From positions 1-64,000 of the forward strand of contig NZ_JAGQEG010000008.1 in assembly GCF_018305005.1 (NCBI RefSeq): a DNA stretch of 64,000 nt, in the 5' to 3' direction. The translations under genes were made by a program, and so were the position numbers. The DNA is from Collimonas silvisoli. GTDB lineage: Bacteria; Pseudomonadota; Gammaproteobacteria; Burkholderiales; Burkholderiaceae_D. Below, in pieces: positions 29,300 to 37,247 of the stretch (positions are counted from its first letter, which is position 1; the number at the start of each line of letters is the position of its first letter). The notes under the pieces are model-generated. The model saw nothing but the letters and a program-made list of their open reading frames with translations. It was not told the DNA's origin and made no database searches.

Positions 29300-32200
29300 T
29301 CAGAAATTCCCGCGCGCCAGTCCGATGCGCGTGATCTGGATCACCTGCTCCAGCACGGCATTGGTTTTTTCCAGGCCCATTACGGCGAACAATGTCGGCA
29401 ACAGCGCTTTGCGAATCGCCGCTTCAACGTTCTGCGGATTCAAGGAATGCTCAGCCACGGCCGTGCGCACCGCCCGGTCAATATGCAAAGCCAGCTCCGT
29501 GTACTGGCGGGTGACGGCTGTGGCCGTTTCATCGGCGGAAGAAAAATCGCTGTCGCCCAGAATCAATTTGAAGATACCGAAATAGGCACAGGCATGATGG
29601 TTATCGCCAAAGACCTCAGGCACGCCATCTACCTCGCGCTTCTCGACCGCATCCTCGAATTTCTTCAGCAAGGCATATTGTTTCAAGGGGTGCTCAAACA
29701 GCGCCTCGGCCTCGGCAATCGCCTGTTTCAACAGATCGCCGAAGACTTTCTGCGCGTACGGATCGTCGGCCAGATCCTGCTCGATGGTCTTGCGCAGGCG
29801 GGTGCGAATGATATCGCTCTCGTTGCGCGTCTTTTCTTCGCTCCAGCGCTCAGGGTCTTCACCCAGCTTATGCACCAGGTACACACCCTGCGGCTCCCGC
29901 ACCTCGCTACCGATGACCTGCTTGTCCACCAAACGCCGGATCTGTTCTTCATAGACGCTGTAATCCACCGTTTCCAACGCATCGCGCCGGGCCGACTGGC
30001 GCAACTCGGTAAAGAAACGCAGATCGCGCTTGTAGATCTCGACATCTTCTTCAGAAAAATCATTGTCCTCGAAGAAGGTGCGCGACGATAACGCCGTCTG
30101 CAGACACAGGCCGAAAGCAGTCAAAGCTTCATAAAAATCCTCGCGCAGCTTTTGCCGCGTATCGACACTTTCGCCCTGCTCATCCTCGACATACTTCGGT
30201 ATCAGCACCTGGCGGAACTGCTCCATATCGCCGCGATTGCTGACGTTCTTGAATATCTCCCACAACGCTTGATGCAGCGTCGGCAAACGCTTGTATTCGG
30301 TGCTGAACTGGCGGTACAAACCCTCGATATCTTCCAGCGCATAACCGCCCTGGGTCTGCGTCTCCAACTCCTGATAGGCGCGGATCGCGGTATCCAGCTC
30401 TTTCAAGATGCCGCGATAATCGACCAGCAGCCCATAGCGCTTGGCCTCATGTAAACGGTTGACCCGCGCAATCGCCTGAATCAGGCTGTGTTCCTTCAGA
30501 GGCTTGTCGATGTACAGCACGGTATTGGCAGGCTCGTCAAAGCCTGTCAGCAAACGATCCACCACGATCAGCAAATCGGGATCGCCCTCGGTCGAAAAAT
30601 TCTCCAGCACGCGCCGCTCATAAGCGTCCTGTGCATCCTGACCATGGCCGATATTTTCCTTCCACCACTGCTGCACTTCCGGCAGCGTGCTTTCATCGAC
30701 GGCGATATTGCCTTCGCGCGTATCCGGCGCGGAAATAATCACCGCGCTACTCACCAGCCCGGTCAGGTCCAACGCCTTCTTGTAACGGATCGCGTCCTGT
30801 TTGCTGGCGGTGGCGATTTGCCCCTTCAATTCCGGGAACACCTTCTTGATGTTCTCGCTGAAGTGCACCGCGATATCCCAGGCAATCAAATCGATCCGAT
30901 TCGCCGCGCTATAAATCGCGCCCTTGGTGGCGAACTTGCGCTTCAAATCCGCCTTCTGCTGATCCGACAAACCCAGTGTGATCTTGTCGAACCAGCGATT
31001 GACTGCCGCCTGGTTCACGTCCAGCTCGGGGACGCGTTCTTCGTACAGTAAAGGCGCCACGGTTTCATCATCCACCGCGCGCTGCATCGTGTAGGCATGG
31101 ACGATGGGGCCGAATTTGTTGGCCGTCTTTTCATCCTTCAGCAACGGCGTACCGGTGAAAGCCACATAAGCTGCACGCGGCAAGGCGCGGCGCATGCGCT
31201 CGTGGGTTTCGCCGCCGTGGCTGCGATGGCCTTCATCGACCAGCACGATCAGATTATGCGAAGGGTTAAAACATTCCGGCAGTTTAGACGCCGTATTGAA
31301 CTTGTGGATCAGCGTAAAGATAATGCGTTCAGTGCCGGAGCCGATACGCCGCGCCAGATCGCGGCCCGAGCTGACCTTGGATTTCTCGCCTTCCTTCTTG
31401 GTCGCGATCATCGAACCGAAAGCGCCGCTGCTCATGAAGTTTTTCGATAGCTGATCTTCCAGATCGAGCCGGTCAGTCACCACGATCACACGGCAATCCT
31501 TCAGGCTGTCGTGCAGAATCAGCGCCTTGGTCAAGAACACCATGGTGAACGATTTACCGGAGCCGGTGGTGTGCCAGATCACGCCGCCCTCGCGCCCGCC
31601 ATCCGGGCGGCGCAGGCTGACGCGATCGAGCAGGGCGCGGATGCCGAAGAATTGCTGATGGCGCGCCACCAGCTTGCCGACCTTGCGGTCGAACAATACA
31701 AAGTAACGCACAAATTCCAGCAAGCGCGCAGGCGTCAGCAGACTGATCAACAGCCTATCCTGTTCGGTCGGCAACATCGGGCCGGACCACAAGCGCTTGA
31801 AATAGGTCCGCAACTCGGCCGATTTTTCAGCCAGCAACGCAGACTGCACCGAGCCATTCAAGGGCGTGTTCTTCACGTTGTTGAAATGCGCCCCGTCGAA
31901 TTCCTCATCCTTCCAGTGCGCCCAAAACTTGGCGGCGGTGTGCACCGTGCCGTAACGGCCGTCTGTTTGGCTGATTGCCAGCAGTAGCTGTGCGTAGGCG
32001 AACAACAACGGTATCTCATCCACCCGTTGATTGCGCAACTGCTGGCTGATGCCCTCCGTAATCATCGACGCATTCAAGTTGCCCGAATCCGGCCGCTTGG
32101 CCTCGATCACCACCATCGGAATGCCGTTGATGAAACACACGATATCCGGCCTGCGCGTATGCGTGCCCTGTGCCGACAACACCTCAACCTCGTCCGCTGC

Positions 32201-32605
32201 CTCGAAGCGATTCGCTTTCAGATTTTGCCAATCGATGATGGCAATCGTCGGTTGATGCTTTTTACCGTCGGCCATGAATTCGGTGACGGTGATCCCCAAG
32301 GCTAATTTGTTGTACAGGCGCTCATTCGCCGCCGGCAAACCGTCTTGCAAACCCGCAGCAGACAACTCGCGCACGATCTGGTCAATCGCGTTCGCCGAGA
32401 GCGGATGCATCTCGCCCTTGTATTCGAAACGGCGGCTTTGCAGCACCTCAATCAGCGTCGACTTCAACAGAACTTCGCGGTTACTACCGCGCTTTGCAAG
32501 ACTCACCGCAGGCGACAGATAGGTCCAGCCCAGCGTGCACAGCAGGTGCAAGGCTGGGATGTGGGCACTGAATTGTTCTTTGGTTTGCGGGATGTCGTTA
32601 GGCAT
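29300..32605 (-). CDS. hsdR: Type I restriction endonuclease subunit R
   Basis: A 1101-residue ATP-dependent translocase and nuclease. The N-terminal PD-(D/E)xK nuclease has 'R-R-P-D-I-V-C-F' and 'V-V-I-E-A-K-R-P' (about 152-172). The SF2 motor follows with Walker A 'W-H-T-T-G-S-G-K-S-F-T-M', Walker B 'V-L-V-D-E-G-H-R-S', 'F-T-G-T-P-L' and motif VI 'Q-A-I-A-R-V-N-R'. It cleaves unmodified foreign DNA as an HsdR2M2S complex. It lies 13 bp after hsdS in the same operon. All key residues appear intact. Confidence 0.94.
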   Translation of the reverse strand: MPNDIPQTKEQFSAHIPALHLLCTLGWTYLSPAVSLAKRGSNREVLLKSTLIEVLQSRRFEYKGEMHPLSANAIDQIVRELSAAGLQDGLPAANERLYNKLALGITVTEFMADGKKHQPTIAIIDWQNLKANRFEAADEVEVLSAQGTHTRRPDIVCFINGIPMVVIEAKRPDSGNLNASMITEGISQQLRNQRVDEIPLLFAYAQLLLAISQTDGRYGTVHTAAKFWAHWKDEEFDGAHFNNVKNTPLNGSVQSALLAEKSAELRTYFKRLWSGPMLPTEQDRLLISLLTPARLLEFVRYFVLFDRKVGKLVARHQQFFGIRALLDRVSLRRPDGGREGGVIWHTTGSGKSFTMVFLTKALILHDSLKDCRVIVVTDRLDLEDQLSKNFMSSGAFGSMIATKKEGEKSKVSSGRDLARRIGSGTERIIFTLIHKFNTASKLPECFNPSHNLIVLVDEGHRSHGGETHERMRRALPRAAYVAFTGTPLLKDEKTANKFGPIVHAYTMQRAVDDETVAPLLYEERVPELDVNQAAVNRWFDKITLGLSDQQKADLKRKFATKGAIYSAANRIDLIAWDIAVHFSENIKKVFPELKGQIATASKQDAIRYKKALDLTGLVSSAVIISAPDTREGNIAVDESTLPEVQQWWKENIGHGQDAQDAYERRVLENFSTEGDPDLLIVVDRLLTGFDEPANTVLYIDKPLKEHSLIQAIARVNRLHEAKRYGLLVDYRGILKELDTAIRAYQELETQTQGGYALEDIEGLYRQFSTEYKRLPTLHQALWEIFKNVSNRGDMEQFRQVLIPKYVEDEQGESVDTRQKLREDFYEALTAFGLCLQTALSSRTFFEDNDFSEEDVEIYKRDLRFFTELRQSARRDALETVDYSVYEEQIRRLVDKQVIGSEVREPQGVYLVHKLGEDPERWSEEKTRNESDIIRTRLRKTIEQDLADDPYAQKVFGDLLKQAIAEAEALFEHPLKQYALLKKFEDAVEKREVDGVPEVFGDNHHACAYFGIFKLILGDSDFSSADETATAVTRQYTELALHIDRAVRTAVAEHSLNPQNVEAAIRKALLPTLFAVMGLEKTNAVLEQVIQITRIGLARGNF

Positions 32606-32618
32606 GGACTGGTTCGCG

Positions 32619-33809
32619 TCAGGCCGCGGCCATATCGGGTTGATCGCTTTTTACGCGGCGCTTTCCGGCGAGGAGTTGTTGCATCAGCGCTTGCTTCTGT
32701 CTAATAAGAAGATCGCGCTGTTGTATCTCTGCCTGGATTCTTTCATCGGCTGTATCGAGAATTTTTGCGATGGTCAACTGCTGTTCCAGCGGCGGGCATC
32801 TAACCAAAAGACGCTCAACATCGCTGGAATTAATGGAAGGATAACTGGAGCCGATCACGATGGCGTTGATCTGATCCTGGATATGCCTGGAAAACAAATA
32901 GTGAAACAAATAATCCGATGACGTTCCCGACTTTGCCGTCAGCACCGCGAAGCCGGTCGAGGCGATGCAATCGGCATGGGCGCGGGTTACTCGTGCGAAC
33001 CCTTGCAGATTCGGACGCACGGTAGACATCAATAAATCGCCGGGGCGTACCACGCGACGCGCGCGAGAAGGCGCCTCTGACAAACGATAGGTTGCCAAGC
33101 TCTGACTCACATGATGCTCGTTTACGTCCGACAGGGTGATGTAGCGGAACTGAAAATCAGCCGGTGTGGTTTTGCCTAGTGACTCGGCGTCAATATCAGC
33201 CAAATCGCCGAGCGCCATGTAATGCCATTCTCCCGCCGCCAGGTGGAAAGACTCGTATTTTGAAAAAAATCGATCCATCAATGCCGTCTTATGTGCAGCG
33301 CTGTTCTCAATTAATTTCTCTATCGTTTCAACAGCCTGATCCCAAGCTTCCAACATTTCCGCAATCTTCGACTGTTCGGCAATGCTAGGAACATTGACCG
33401 GAATGCGAGCAAAGTCTTGTGCGTACAGCCTCAGCCTATCTTCTGTCAGACCATGTGAATAAGCCCAAAACAGATAGAGCATCCGTTTAGTTTTAAAAAG
33501 CTGCGAAGCAAAAGCAGGATCTACAGTCGGTTTTTGCTTCAGCACCACATACGCTGGGCTAACCAACCCCTCTTTCTCTGCAAGACCAAATGCGCCCTGC
33601 CACATCCGCATCATGTTGTAGGCAATGTCATTTGGCTTGACCAGCAAATGCTCGTCGGCAGTCAGCGTTGTTTCCTGTTTGCGCTCAAGATCATCACGAT
33701 TAACCAGCCCGTTATTCAGCGTGACAGATAGAGTTGGCAGCCCCTCGCGGCCCTTTTCACGACGGCTGGAAAAAAGATCGCCGAGGTGGCAATTACCGTC
33801 ATAACTCAT
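32619..33809 (-). CDS. hsdS: Type I restriction-modification specificity subunit (full, two TRDs)
   Basis: A 396-residue HsdS with two target-recognition domains (about 1-140 and 195-340). Each is followed by a helical conserved region: 'A-E-Q-S-K-I-A-E-M-L-E-A-W-D-Q-A-V' near 145 and 'L-E-Q-Q-L-T-I-A-K-I-L-D-T-A-D' near 345. It sets the DNA sequence recognised by the methyltransferase and nuclease. Its ATG overlaps the stop of the small repeat ORF (ATGA), so it is translationally coupled to it. Confidence 0.9.
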   Translation of the reverse strand: MSYDGNCHLGDLFSSRREKGREGLPTLSVTLNNGLVNRDDLERKQETTLTADEHLLVKPNDIAYNMMRMWQGAFGLAEKEGLVSPAYVVLKQKPTVDPAFASQLFKTKRMLYLFWAYSHGLTEDRLRLYAQDFARIPVNVPSIAEQSKIAEMLEAWDQAVETIEKLIENSAAHKTALMDRFFSKYESFHLAAGEWHYMALGDLADIDAESLGKTTPADFQFRYITLSDVNEHHVSQSLATYRLSEAPSRARRVVRPGDLLMSTVRPNLQGFARVTRAHADCIASTGFAVLTAKSGTSSDYLFHYLFSRHIQDQINAIVIGSSYPSINSSDVERLLVRCPPLEQQLTIAKILDTADERIQAEIQQRDLLIRQKQALMQQLLAGKRRVKSDQPDMAAA

Positions 33810-34102
33810 TGCGCTTCCTCTCTTTGAACCTGTAAGTAACTCTTACAGGTTGCCCCTGCTTTTGATATACAACCGCTCTTGTCGTCAGCGACAGGTATCA
33901 AGTTTTCCTTTACAACTGCCGCGACTTGCAATTTCCACGTCGTTTGAACAGTCAAGCATTCCTTGACTGTTGCCTGCTGCAGAAAAAAGTTTTTGGCCTG
34001 AACTATTAAATCTTCCTTAATAGTTGTTCCGCCAGTCAATTTTCCCATGGCGCACTGATAGAACCGTGCCGCAAAGGGCGGGCTAGCTATCATCTTGTTC
34101 AT
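33806..34102 (-). CDS. Small repeat ORF (K-E-x-L repeats) coded by tandem hairpins
   Basis: An open frame of about 98 codons (MNKMIASPPFAARFYQCAMG; starts at 34117 or 34093 are also possible). It overlaps the 3' end of dinD and overlaps hsdS by 4 bp (ATGA), so it is placed like a real coupled gene. The protein is four imperfect repeats of about 18-22 residues: TIKEDLIVQ, TVKECLTVQ, VVKENLIPV, TCKSYLQVQ. In the DNA three of these are near-perfect hairpins of 25 nt with different stems. The motif faintly recalls a variable V-K-x-x-L segment of RhuM-type proteins (from memory). The function is unknown; the RNA or DNA structure may matter more than the peptide. Confidence 0.55.
   Translation of the reverse strand: MNKMIASPPFAARFYQCAMGKLTGGTTIKEDLIVQAKNFFLQQATVKECLTVQTTWKLQVAAVVKENLIPVADDKSGCISKAGATCKSYLQVQREEAQ
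33827..34025 (-). repeat. Tandem array of four 25-nt hairpin units with covarying stems
   Basis: Units at 34001-34025 (9-bp stem), 33947-33971 (10-bp perfect stem), 33893-33917 (degenerate, about 6 of 10 pairs) and 33827-33851 (10-bp perfect stem). Starts are 54, 54 and 66 bp apart. On the minus strand the pattern is AAC-N4-AA(G), a 5-7 nt loop, then (C)TT-N4-GTT. The N4 differs between units (TATT, AGTC, CTGT type) but stays complementary within each intact unit. This keeps structure rather than sequence and lies wholly inside the small ORF. Confidence 0.75.
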
Positions 34103-34946
34103 TCTTTTTCTTTCCATCGATTTTTTTCTGCTGGCGCTCTATCTGCTGAATGCTTTTGTCCGGCGCCGGCAGATTTTCCGGCATGGTGCCGCCGAGCTCT
34201 TTGATGGTCTGGCGTACTTTCTTGCCAACTTCGAGGTGAGTGTGGTTGGCGGCGGTTTTGCCGTGCACACCTTCGCGACGCAGCTTTTCTTCGGCTTGCG
34301 TTGCGCGGAACAGGTTGGCGGCCAGTTCCGTGCTACCCATGTGATCAAGAATTTTCTGGCTTTTTTTCAAATCCTTGTTACGGTGAATTTCTTTCGCGCC
34401 CAGACCGCCGTAGAGGCCTTTGTATCCATGATCCTGAAATACGGCATAGTCTATCGGCGTCTTGACGCCGGCCTGCTTGGCTGCTGCGGCAAGGTCTTTG
34501 TTGTGACGGGCAAGCTCATTGCGCAACATGAGGCGGCGTTCATCTTCCTTGAGTTGTGCGAAGGAGGTCTCATCTTGCAGCTCTTGACGTCGGCTTTGCA
34601 AGGCGAAGTAAGTTTGGCCGTTAGCAATGACTGGCTTGGCCGGATTGCCGTTCTGAACGATCAGGTAGCAGGCGTAACGCGTCAGCTTAATATCCTCGAT
34701 CGCACGTTGAGCCCGAGAGCCGATTTGGACCATTTCGGTGACGTCACCGAAATGGTCTGAAACCGGATGGTTTGAGAGCGCGCAGGCCTGCTTGGCTTTG
34801 TCGATGACACGCAGAAAATTTCGGTAATCCCGATAATCCAGCAATGGCGCTAGATCACGGGCAAACCAGAATTCATTGCCGTCATTGTCTTCTCGGCGAA
34901 TGCTTTCGAAAGTTTGGTTCGATGTCGAAAGATCTTTATCAGTCAT
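34083..34946 (-). CDS. dinD: DNA damage-inducible protein D (DinD)
   Basis: A 287-residue DinD family protein. The BRO-N-like N-terminal domain has 'F-E-S-I-R-R-E-D-N-D-G-N-E-F-W-F-A-R-D-L-A' and 'L-L-D-Y-R-D-Y-R-N-F'. 'L-T-R-Y-A-C-Y-L-I-V-Q-N-G-N-P' and 'Q-T-Y-F-A-L-Q-S-R-R-Q-E' follow, then a basic C-terminus. E. coli DinD is SOS-induced and inhibits RecA filaments. Here it sits inside the type I restriction operon, its start overlapping hsdM by 8 bp. No obvious LexA box precedes it, so it is probably transcribed with hsdM. Confidence 0.9.
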   Translation of the reverse strand: MTDKDLSTSNQTFESIRREDNDGNEFWFARDLAPLLDYRDYRNFLRVIDKAKQACALSNHPVSDHFGDVTEMVQIGSRAQRAIEDIKLTRYACYLIVQNGNPAKPVIANGQTYFALQSRRQELQDETSFAQLKEDERRLMLRNELARHNKDLAAAAKQAGVKTPIDYAVFQDHGYKGLYGGLGAKEIHRNKDLKKSQKILDHMGSTELAANLFRATQAEEKLRREGVHGKTAANHTHLEVGKKVRQTIKELGGTMPENLPAPDKSIQQIERQQKKIDGKKKNEQDDS

Positions 34947-36507
34947 AACCCAACTCCTTAAGATAACCCGCCATCTTTACTTCCAGCAGCGCCAGCTCAG
35001 TCTTGAGTATTTCGCGTTCTGCACGCACAGCCTTCATGTCGATTTCTGCTTCTTCCTCGAAGGTATCGACGTAGCGCGGAATATTGAGGTTGTAATCGTT
35101 CTCCGCAATCTCGGCGACGCTGGCTAGGTAGGCGTATTTACCCACGCTTTTACGCTGGCGAGCGGTAGTGAGGATGCGTTGCAAATCCTGGTCGCGCAAT
35201 ACGTTCTGGTTCTTGCTATCCAAAAATTCGCGGCTGGCGTCGATGAACAAGACCTTATCGTCTTGCTTCTTCTTACGGAACACCAGTACGGCGGCAGGAA
35301 TTCCAGTACCGTAAAACAATTTTTCCGGCAGGCCGATGACAATATCGAGCAGGTTTTCGTCAATCAGTTGTTTGCGAATGACGCCTTCCGCCGCGCCACG
35401 GAACAGCACGCCGTGCGGCACCACCACGGCCATGCGGCCTGAGCCGGGTTTCATGGTTTCTATCATGTGCAAGACAAAGGCGTAGTCGCCCTTGGTCTTT
35501 GGCGGCAGGCCGCGCTGGAAGCGCAGGAATTTGTCGTCTTGCGCACCGTCGTGCCCCCATTTTTCCAGCGAGAACGGTGGATTGGCGACGACGATGTCGA
35601 AATGCTTGAGCCGCGCATCGCCATCCAGCAGCTTGGGGTTGCGGATGGTGTCGCCCCATTCGATGCGGTGGTTATCCTCGCCATGCAGGAACATATTCAT
35701 CTTGGCCAGCGCCCAGGTGCTGCCGATAGCTTCCTGTCCGTACAGCGCGTATTTGCGCGAGCCGTTGCGCTGGCGGATCAACTGGCCGCAGTTCATCAGG
35801 AGCGAACCGGAGCCGCAAGTGGGGTCGCAAATGTCGTCGCCTTCTTGCGGATCGACCAGCAGCGCCATCAGTTGCGAGACTTCGGGCGGTGTGTAGAACT
35901 CGCCGGCTTTTTTGCCGCTGGTGGAGGCGAAATTCTTGATCAGAAATTCGTAGGCGTTGCCGATCACGTCCAATGTGCCGATACGGCTCGGGCGCAAATT
36001 GAGTGCCGGCTTGGCAAAGTCTTCCAGCAGGTGGCGCAGGATGTCGTTCTTTTGCGCTTCGTCGCCTAGCTTGGTGGAGTTGAAGGTGATGTCCTGGAAC
36101 ACATCGCGCAACTTCTGGATATTGGTTTCTTCTATGGCGTGCAGGGCCTTGTCGATGCGCTCGCCGTTGCCGGGTTCATGGCGCTTGGTGTGCAAGTCAT
36201 AGAAATTGGCGGCGGGCGGCAGCACGAAACGCTCGTTCTTAAGCAGCTCGGCGATCAGTTCCGGATGGTCGCCGTGTTTTTTCTTGTAGCTGTCGTAATG
36301 GTCTTGCCAGACGTCTGAAATATATTTCAAGAACAGCATCGTCAGCACGTAGTCCTTGTAGATGCTGGCGTCGACAGTGCCGCGAAAGGTGTCGCAGGCT
36401 TCCCAGACGGCGCGGTTGATGACGTCTTGTTCGATTGGGGCGTGCTTGCTCACACTGTTGCTTGCATTGTTGTTCACGCTGTTATTTACCTTATCGATTT
36501 CATTCAT
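34939..36507 (-). CDS. hsdM: Type I restriction-modification methyltransferase subunit M
   Basis: A 522-residue N6-adenine methyltransferase. The HsdM N-terminal helical domain ('Y-K-D-Y-V-L-T-M-L-F-L-K-Y-I-S-D') is followed by the SAM site 'D-P-T-C-G-S-G-S-L-L' (about 228-237) and the catalytic NPPF ('V-V-A-N-P-P-F-S-L-E'). The C-terminus is a coiled-coil helix. With HsdS it methylates host sites. The N-terminus is Asn/Ser-rich (MNEIDKVNNSVNNNASNSVS) before the conserved part. It overlaps the half-size hsdS by 8 bp and dinD by 8 bp. Confidence 0.94.
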   Translation of the reverse strand: MNEIDKVNNSVNNNASNSVSKHAPIEQDVINRAVWEACDTFRGTVDASIYKDYVLTMLFLKYISDVWQDHYDSYKKKHGDHPELIAELLKNERFVLPPAANFYDLHTKRHEPGNGERIDKALHAIEETNIQKLRDVFQDITFNSTKLGDEAQKNDILRHLLEDFAKPALNLRPSRIGTLDVIGNAYEFLIKNFASTSGKKAGEFYTPPEVSQLMALLVDPQEGDDICDPTCGSGSLLMNCGQLIRQRNGSRKYALYGQEAIGSTWALAKMNMFLHGEDNHRIEWGDTIRNPKLLDGDARLKHFDIVVANPPFSLEKWGHDGAQDDKFLRFQRGLPPKTKGDYAFVLHMIETMKPGSGRMAVVVPHGVLFRGAAEGVIRKQLIDENLLDIVIGLPEKLFYGTGIPAAVLVFRKKKQDDKVLFIDASREFLDSKNQNVLRDQDLQRILTTARQRKSVGKYAYLASVAEIAENDYNLNIPRYVDTFEEEAEIDMKAVRAEREILKTELALLEVKMAGYLKELGYD

Positions 36508-37102
36508 GGGCTTGATCTGATGAGTGTTGCTCGGCCAGCAATTGCAGGGACAAAGCCTGTATTTGCTGCTGGCGATTGTGGATAAGGCTTTCCAGGTGCT
36601 GGCGCTCTTGCCGCACCGCTTGATCCAGCCGGATCAGCGCATGCTGTTGCGCCATGGCCGGCACAGCGATGGGCAGCGCTTCCAGCACGCCACGGCGGAT
36701 GCTGAGCTGATCGGTGCCTTCGGCATTTTTGCCGAAGTAGCGCTGGGCCGGCAGCTGGTTGATCTGCCAGGCGAGGAATTCGGGCAGCAGTTGCTTGCTG
36801 TCATGCACGCGGATCAGGAAGAAGTATTGCGAGCAGACTGCCGGGGCGGGAACCTGGCCCAGACAGACGGCAAAATTGCGCGCGCCCTTGGCGACAAAAA
36901 GAATATCGCCCGGCTGCAGCCAATCCGGTTGTTTGCGGCCTTGCAGCCGAGTGCGCATCACCGTGCTCCAGTCGACGCCGGCGGCGATGCTGATGTCGCG
37001 CATCTGGATTGCCAACGCCGGGCCGTCAGCCACTTCCGGCACGCTGCCGCGAAAGGGATGCCCGACTAGAACTTCGGCAAACGTAAGTAATTCACCTAAC
37101 AT
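36500..37102 (-). CDS. Half-size HsdS-like specificity protein (single TRD)
   Basis: About 200 residues from MLGELLTFAEVLVGHPFRGS; a longer frame to 37171 adds 23 residues. It has one target-recognition domain ('L-Q-P-G-D-I-L-F-V-A-K-G-A-R-N-F', 'F-L-A-W-Q-I-N-Q-L-P-A-Q-R') and one helical conserved region ('A-Q-Q-H-A-L-I-R-L-D-Q-A-V-R-Q-E-R-Q-H-L'). Full HsdS proteins have two of each; half subunits can work as dimers or are remnants. It is the first gene of the operon and overlaps hsdM. Having it beside a complete hsdS is unusual. Confidence 0.78.
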   Translation of the reverse strand: MLGELLTFAEVLVGHPFRGSVPEVADGPALAIQMRDISIAAGVDWSTVMRTRLQGRKQPDWLQPGDILFVAKGARNFAVCLGQVPAPAVCSQYFFLIRVHDSKQLLPEFLAWQINQLPAQRYFGKNAEGTDQLSIRRGVLEALPIAVPAMAQQHALIRLDQAVRQERQHLESLIHNRQQQIQALSLQLLAEQHSSDQAHE

Positions 37103-37247
37103 TGTGCACCAATCAATTTGATGCAGCAATTTTCCTTGTGAAAGATAAACATTGCAACTAGGATATAGCAATATTTATCGCACCAAGTAGATTGATGCGT
37201 TAAAAGTGATTTTCAATCTTTCGTGAATTATTGCCACTTATGGACTT

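Follow-up and report, generated by a model that had tools for sequence, protein, structure and literature searches.

The window analysed here, a stretch of 64,000 nucleotides from Collimonas silvisoli, contains a type I restriction operon in which an open reading frame (ORF) between dinD and hsdS is filled with a row of short palindromes. What is such a row of hairpins doing inside a restriction operon, and where did it come from? The gene order is hsdM-dinD-array-hsdS-hsdR, and the features concerned are the following.

34939-36507, minus strand: hsdM (TIGR00497)
34083-34946, minus strand: dinD (PADLOC PDC-S13, E 1.2e-120; NF008573, E 5.6e-133)
33806-34117, minus strand: unit-bearing ORF, 103 codons (starting at 34117 or 34102 and ending at 33806)
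34001-34025, minus strand: unit 1, arms AACTATTAAG..TTTAATAGTT, triplet AAG, peptide TIKEDLIV, 9/10 pairs
33947-33971, minus strand: unit 2, arms AACAGTCAAG..CTTGACTGTT, triplet AAG, peptide TVKECLTV, 10/10 pairs
33892-33918, minus strand: unit 3, decayed, like the CAGTT class of rhuM sites (see below), peptide AVVKENLIP
33827-33851, minus strand: unit 4, arms AACCTGTAAG..CTTACAGGTT, triplet AAG, peptide TCKSYLQV, 10/10 pairs
32619-33809, minus strand: hsdS (PF01420)
29300-32605, minus strand: hsdR (TIGR00348)

Re-reading the sequence and its translations confirmed the array much as the initial annotation had described it: four palindromic units spaced 54-66 bp apart, three well paired and one decayed, in an ORF that overlaps dinD and has the bases ATGA in common with hsdS. 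The unit-to-unit centre distances are 66, 54, and 54 bp, the core peptides of units 1-4 read KEDL, KECL, KENL, and KSYL, and the single imperfect position of unit 1 is a G-T at the tenth pair. Searched as a protein with tblastn, the ORF had no relatives in plasmids, phages, viral contigs, or genome contigs; 60 genomes yielded weak relatives (E 0.05-0.7), and none of the seven loci scanned had such palindromes. A Pfam scan gave no match to PF13310, so that by domain the ORF is not a RhuM protein, and the RhuM profile PDC-S05 matched it weakly and within the unit region only (best E 0.0016). A general repeat finder reported nothing at the array. The frame probably stays open because it couples translation along the operon.

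The pairing in this row is far from what composition would give. Units of the form AAC..GTT with at least 9/10 pairs occur three times, whereas 60 dinucleotide shuffles had 0.033 on average and never more than one. In 5000 synonymous re-codings of the ORF, the pair count did not exceed 28, against 29 observed. Hairpins of this size are in general no rarity here (20 in the window, versus a shuffle mean of 3.6); the unusual feature is the tight cluster of a single hairpin class. The consensus put forward in the initial annotation is weak on its own, with 4 window matches at up to two mismatches where 1.40 are expected, a number reached by 2 of 100 shuffles. Across the rest of the genome, the pattern occurs at four other places with at most one mismatch, none of them well paired, and the paired ones are found at the array alone.

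A link to another gene family arose from hairpins at loci near dinD homologues: at a fixed codon position, genes of the RhuM family (PF13310) contain a palindrome built like the window units. It is in register, with 8-10 of 10 pairs each, at 116 of 119 rhuM loci, which are a part of the rhuM places found; L133, L135, and L192, whose profile match starts at residue 9-16, were set aside. In a second set, from viral contigs, 66 of 73 genes have the palindrome with at least 8 pairs. It is 25-27 bp long, lies some 15 codons past the DNA-reading residues, and comes in two main classes, AAC..GTT (e.g., ATVKESLTVQ) and CAGTT..AACTG (e.g., SVVRFFRTTA). Averaged over the 85 distinct 27-mers, 9.49 of 10 positions pair. 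Synonymous re-coding lowers this to 6.46 (200 trials, none above 6.74), and exchanging halves among the genes lowers it to 5.13 (none above 5.58). Double compensatory changes are seen at all ten pairs, and mirrored codons change together (K/L, R/R, E/S, S/E, A/A, N/L). The covariation that had been read from the window's few stems is thus supported in rhuM, as is the idea of a coding palindromic element that spreads; the pattern named as speaking against it, a peptide kept while pairing is lost, appears in reverse, pairing being kept while the peptide changes.

The window units share their length, AAC..GTT ends, AAG triplet, 3' CAA flank, and frame with the rhuM palindrome, and differ from it in standing in a row outside any rhuM gene. 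We define an AAC-class RhuM-type site as AAC-N7-N5-N7-GTT with complementary arms and an inner triplet found in rhuM; units 1, 2, and 4 are such sites, and unit 3 is not clearly one. A site model built from rhuM genes only recovered unit 2 (E 3.6e-7), unit 4 (E 6.3e-6), and unit 1 (E 9.9e-4) from the 64 kb, and an unfiltered model search placed unit 3 at 33890-33921 on the plus strand (9.4 bits) and at 33889-33920 on the minus strand (4.8 bits). Conversely, a model of the array was run against three genomes, G039 and the congeners G009 and G011. Among the strictly filtered matches listed at E <= 0.05, each genome has one site, matched on both strands, inside rhuM; G039 contains a further rhuM (L056), which belongs to the other class and is invisible to the array model. 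In G042, G038, and G020, array-model matches lie outside any rhuM frame seen (L205, L209, L214).

Every base pair of the palindrome was compared with every RhuM alignment column except those encoded by the palindrome itself. For pairs 5-10, the best columns fall within the recognition helix of a helix-turn-helix (HTH): column 58 for pair 10, 55 for pairs 8 and 9, 54 for pair 7, and 57 and 53 for pairs 6 and 5, respectively (residues 54, 55, and 58 are numbered by the columns of our alignment). Pairs 2 and 3 track columns 74 and 84, and pair 4 tracks none clearly. The inner triplet of the half-site follows the helix closely: CGG goes with Glu58 (33/33), CGA with Tyr58 (12/12), GAG with Asp54 and Leu58 (10/10), TCC with Lys58 and Ala55 (8/8), AAC with Lys58 and Asn55 (6/6), and AAG with Leu, Gln, or Met58 (28/30). 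Among 55 non-overlapping close rhuM pairs, residues 54, 55, or 58 differ in 25/25 pairs with different triplets versus 11/30 with the same triplet, the former being less similar overall (identity 0.71 vs 0.82). Because of this contrast, relatedness alone does not explain the link between helix and triplet. In one pair that is 94% identical elsewhere, a switch from CGG to CGA is accompanied by the replacements Glu58Tyr and Arg54Pro.

The rules from this first set were then applied to the viral-contig rhuM genes, of which 80 of 122 relatives were kept, with a recognised helix in 73. Overall, 57 unique cases resulted; a rule covered 47 of them and was right for 43, whereas 10,000 permutations gave 10.4 right on average and 21 at most. 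None of the 57 helix stretches and three of the 57 sites occur in the first set. Some results count against the code: in seven of the 73 genes with a recognisable helix, the part scanned contains no palindrome reaching 8 pairs, and a factorised code gave the third base correctly in 49/51 cases, the first two bases in 38/54, and the whole triplet in 31/48. The choice of synonymous codons is also informative. Arg and Lys codons of the first set end in G with a non-aromatic residue 58 in 66/66 cases and in A with Tyr, Phe, or His in 16/16; the corresponding hold-out numbers are 34/35 and 5/5, and one Arg codon (CGT, with Asp58) falls outside the table. Because synonymous codons follow residue 58, with Arg written as CGG beside Glu58 and as CGA beside Tyr58, the palindrome seems to be recognised as DNA, and contacts within the protein cannot easily explain the pattern. 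The correlation of helix and arms instead suggests that a dimeric HTH protein recognises the double strand.

A predicted RhuM structure (mean pLDDT 74.9) places the read residues at the start of a helix spanning 46-58 and most palindrome-coded residues within a wing strand, 68-77. No solved structure matched RhuM by sequence; the best fold match, DdrC (E 3e-3, TM 0.23-0.31), was too weak for use. Judging from these sequence comparisons, the rhuM palindrome most likely serves as an operator for the very gene in which it lies. RhuM begins with a winged HTH, and its dimer would bind the palindrome in its own gene, residues 54, 55, and 58 of the recognition helix fitting the inner triplet of each half-site; owing to this fit, the specificity of the protein and its site would change together within about 90 bp of the gene. 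A site inside rhuM may provide feedback by hindering elongation, and in an hsd operon this would limit hsdS and hsdR downstream as well. Computation shows the sites, the class to which they belong, the correspondence of helix and site, and the slot described below; that RhuM binds at the rhuM and array sites in the cell is what we infer.

The congeners show what else can occupy this slot. The G009 operon reads hsdM-rhuM-hsdS-hsdR with overlapping ends and is orthologous to that of the window (tblastn identity 94% for HsdM and 91% for HsdR), and its rhuM fills the place held in the window by dinD and the array; DNA similarity between the two ends at the hsdM end and resumes near the hsdR start. 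Unit 2 and the G009 rhuM site agree at 28/31 bases, and two of the three mismatches compensate each other as one pair. Similarly, unit 4 matches the rhuM site of G011 at 26/30 bases, two of the four differences being a compensated pair, and its arms are identical to those of a rhuM on a phage contig (L278), while unit 1 differs from the rhuM site of L180 at two positions. The rhuM of G011 is shortened and adjoins an hsdM remnant. Upstream of hsdM, the window contains a 223-codon ORF (36500-37171) that by eye resembles half of an HsdS, and a comparable ORF precedes hsdM in G009 (L359:3531-4109). No RhuM was found in the genome of the window, where dinD is the only Bro-N match, and the array is thus without a known reader.

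A possible but less favoured reading is that successive rhuM genes once occupied the slot and, as they were replaced, the last time by dinD, left behind operator fragments that now make up the array, which would have no present function. The rhuM in the G009 slot, the shortened gene in G011, the lack of any RhuM found in the own genome, the decay of unit 3, and two adjoining rhuM-like fragments seen by eye in L087 all fit this account. It sits poorly with the 9-10 of 10 pairs retained by three of the four units and with the lack of rhuM-like flanks around units 2 and 4 past about 31 bases; four different sites in register would also be unexpected with no gene parts remaining. We consider it probable that the window array is a row of RhuM-family operator sites in the slot between hsdM/dinD and hsdS, without the gene. 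As the own genome yielded no RhuM, the reader of the array would have to come from elsewhere: a RhuM arriving on another element may bind the array and hinder transcription into hsdS and hsdR. The regulatory or decoy role suggested in the initial annotation gains support as a possible role, while control of hsdS is a step that we infer. It is unlikely, in our estimate, that the array represents the self-operators of other elements' RhuM proteins, its units matching different rhuM alleles and serving the hsd operon as a sponge for RhuM proteins that come in or as a landing platform that lowers hsdS on arrival of an element carrying rhuM. If the operon did use operators collected in this way, they would amount to a small sequence memory.

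To place the array in a wider setting, we looked for similar rows and for rhuM beside restriction genes. At 17 of 57 rhuM loci, an Hsd neighbour is detectable with the window's proteins within about 1.5 kb on each side. A two-unit pattern with five pairs left free found 25 genome and 9 viral stretches, of which 13 and 2, respectively, have at least 4/5 free pairs in both units; among the 13, L081 and L101 come from one MAG, and the compared arms of L081, L101, and L103 differ by one base only. Because the pattern demands AA..TT, AAG-like units are favoured by design, and the A2 array pairing percentage proves little because units were picked for at least 9/10 pairs (L084:2197 has 8). Type I genes also occur in L089 and L103, and L104 has an ORF with two units between hsdM and hsdS, with an ATGA overlap at either end. 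By eye, L100 contains an hsdM piece, a nuclease-like ORF, and a rhuM-like ORF whose helix predicts AAG, as found in its array. A dinD-like gene lies ahead of the array in L088, and the arrays of L111 and L113 are on contigs classed as viral. In L085 and L092, the array triplets differ from the prediction for the local RhuM-like helix, which counts against the regulatory reading. As a separate observation, the Clostridia MAG G709 (L263-L266; also the genome of L081) has 66 array-model matches, counting both strands; those read are mostly intergenic, and their arms are nearly always AACTATTAAG, with a single compensated variant. In this genome the class is thus dispersed in a REP-like manner.

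That last genome would also suit palindromes that an enzyme cuts or joins, either as short mobile units or as a means of exchanging the embedded gene and hsdS, as would the units 1 nt apart in L103 and L111, the two tandem copies in a Bro-N-like gene of L275, and the differing hsdM-hsdR block between the window and G009. We find this quite unlikely, since the similarity to G009 breaks at the hsdM end and near the hsdR start rather than at the palindromes, and the helix-site code fits a binding site with no need for cleavage.

Least likely of all is that the units act as hairpins in the mRNA, for example on the coupling of translation between dinD and hsdS, even though the ATGA coupling, the frame kept open through the units, and the two-unit ORF overlapping both hsdM and hsdS in L104 would suit it: arrays of the same class are also non-coding (L080, L088, L111), Rfam gave no match up to E 1 across 32000-36000, and the arms track the recognition helix of a protein. 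In an RNA stem, a preference for G-U on one strand would be expected. No such excess is evident among the unpaired cells, albeit with small numbers, either in the rhuM set (10 G-T, 14 A-C, and 19 other among 43) or in the array set (10, 6, and 11 among 27). The selection on RNA or single-stranded structure proposed in the initial annotation is thus supported neither by the G-T counts relative to A-C nor by the arms, which the helix of the rhuM product predicts, and the window units are probably not an RNA element.

The neighbouring gene offers a parallel. The window's dinD contains a perfect 30-bp coding palindrome (34728-34757, peptide DHFGDVTEMV); at least 11 of 15 positions are paired at 23 of 27 dinD loci, and homologues keep the palindrome by compensating changes. 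The 21 distinct dinD palindromes average 13.1 paired positions, compared with 8.85 under a synonymous null and 10.3 under a half-swap null, the best of 29 offsets having been chosen for the palindromes and the nulls not being so scanned. By analogy with rhuM, this is probably a self-operator as well. The earlier suggestion that DinD binds the array found no support, dinD having its own palindrome with other letters. Conservation of the array with dinD was likewise rejected: among the 27 dinD loci scanned, that of the window alone has an AAC-class array. Palindromes of the AAC..GTT type were also seen in genes that by eye are Bro-N-like (ELVTNCYQL, ELSTICRQL, ELSEKIGQL) or, in one case, ORF6N-like (ELVKIFDRF), single cases whose frame differs from that of rhuM (L210:510, L269:1041, L272:1044, L275:1045, L270:1023); in L275, the two palindromes stand in tandem. 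In L043, dinD-like and rhuM stretches occupy one open frame and, together with the PADLOC profile PDLC04871, which matches both families, this suggests dinD-rhuM fusions.

The RhuM family itself is known (PF13310; PADLOC candidate PDC-S05); the palindrome inside rhuM appears to be new, as we found no earlier report of it or of the helix-site code among the titles and abstracts listed from the open literature. If our reading is true, RhuM, a widespread family of unknown function, has an operator within its own coding sequence, as probably do DinD and other Bro-N genes; what the protein recognises and the site itself would then move and change as one. This would provide a readable protein-DNA recognition code and a direct binding assay for families that are now only candidate phage defences, and it would account for the orphan arrays of hairpins seen next to type I restriction genes.

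Several known systems resemble the array in part. PARCELs (PMC2996958) are tandem coding palindromes spread between bacteria, as here, with a 25-residue (75-nt) amphipathic repeat matching DUF285. A PARCEL/DUF285 element was ruled out, the ORF having no DUF285 match in the Pfam scan and a repeat spacing of 54-66 nt. Palindromes inside reading frames also occur in Rickettsia, whose palindromic elements are inserted in frame into various genes of a single genome; an element of this type was ruled out because the paired pattern occurs in the own genome at the array locus only. The outer boxes of integron attC sites read RYYYAAC and GTTRRRY, which the flanks of unit 2 (GGCAAC/GTTCAA) and unit 4 (TTGAAC/GTTGCC) rule out. 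REP-like intergenic palindromes are also short, and one Clostridia MAG has the same class between genes, but the class found in the window is not repeated over its own genome. A further comparison is with the ordinary operator arrays of HTH repressors. As there, several dyad sites of one HTH family stand beside the genes of one operon; in contrast to them, the window array is without a known reader, and the putative rhuM operator lies inside the coding sequence of its regulator and changes together with the recognition helix.
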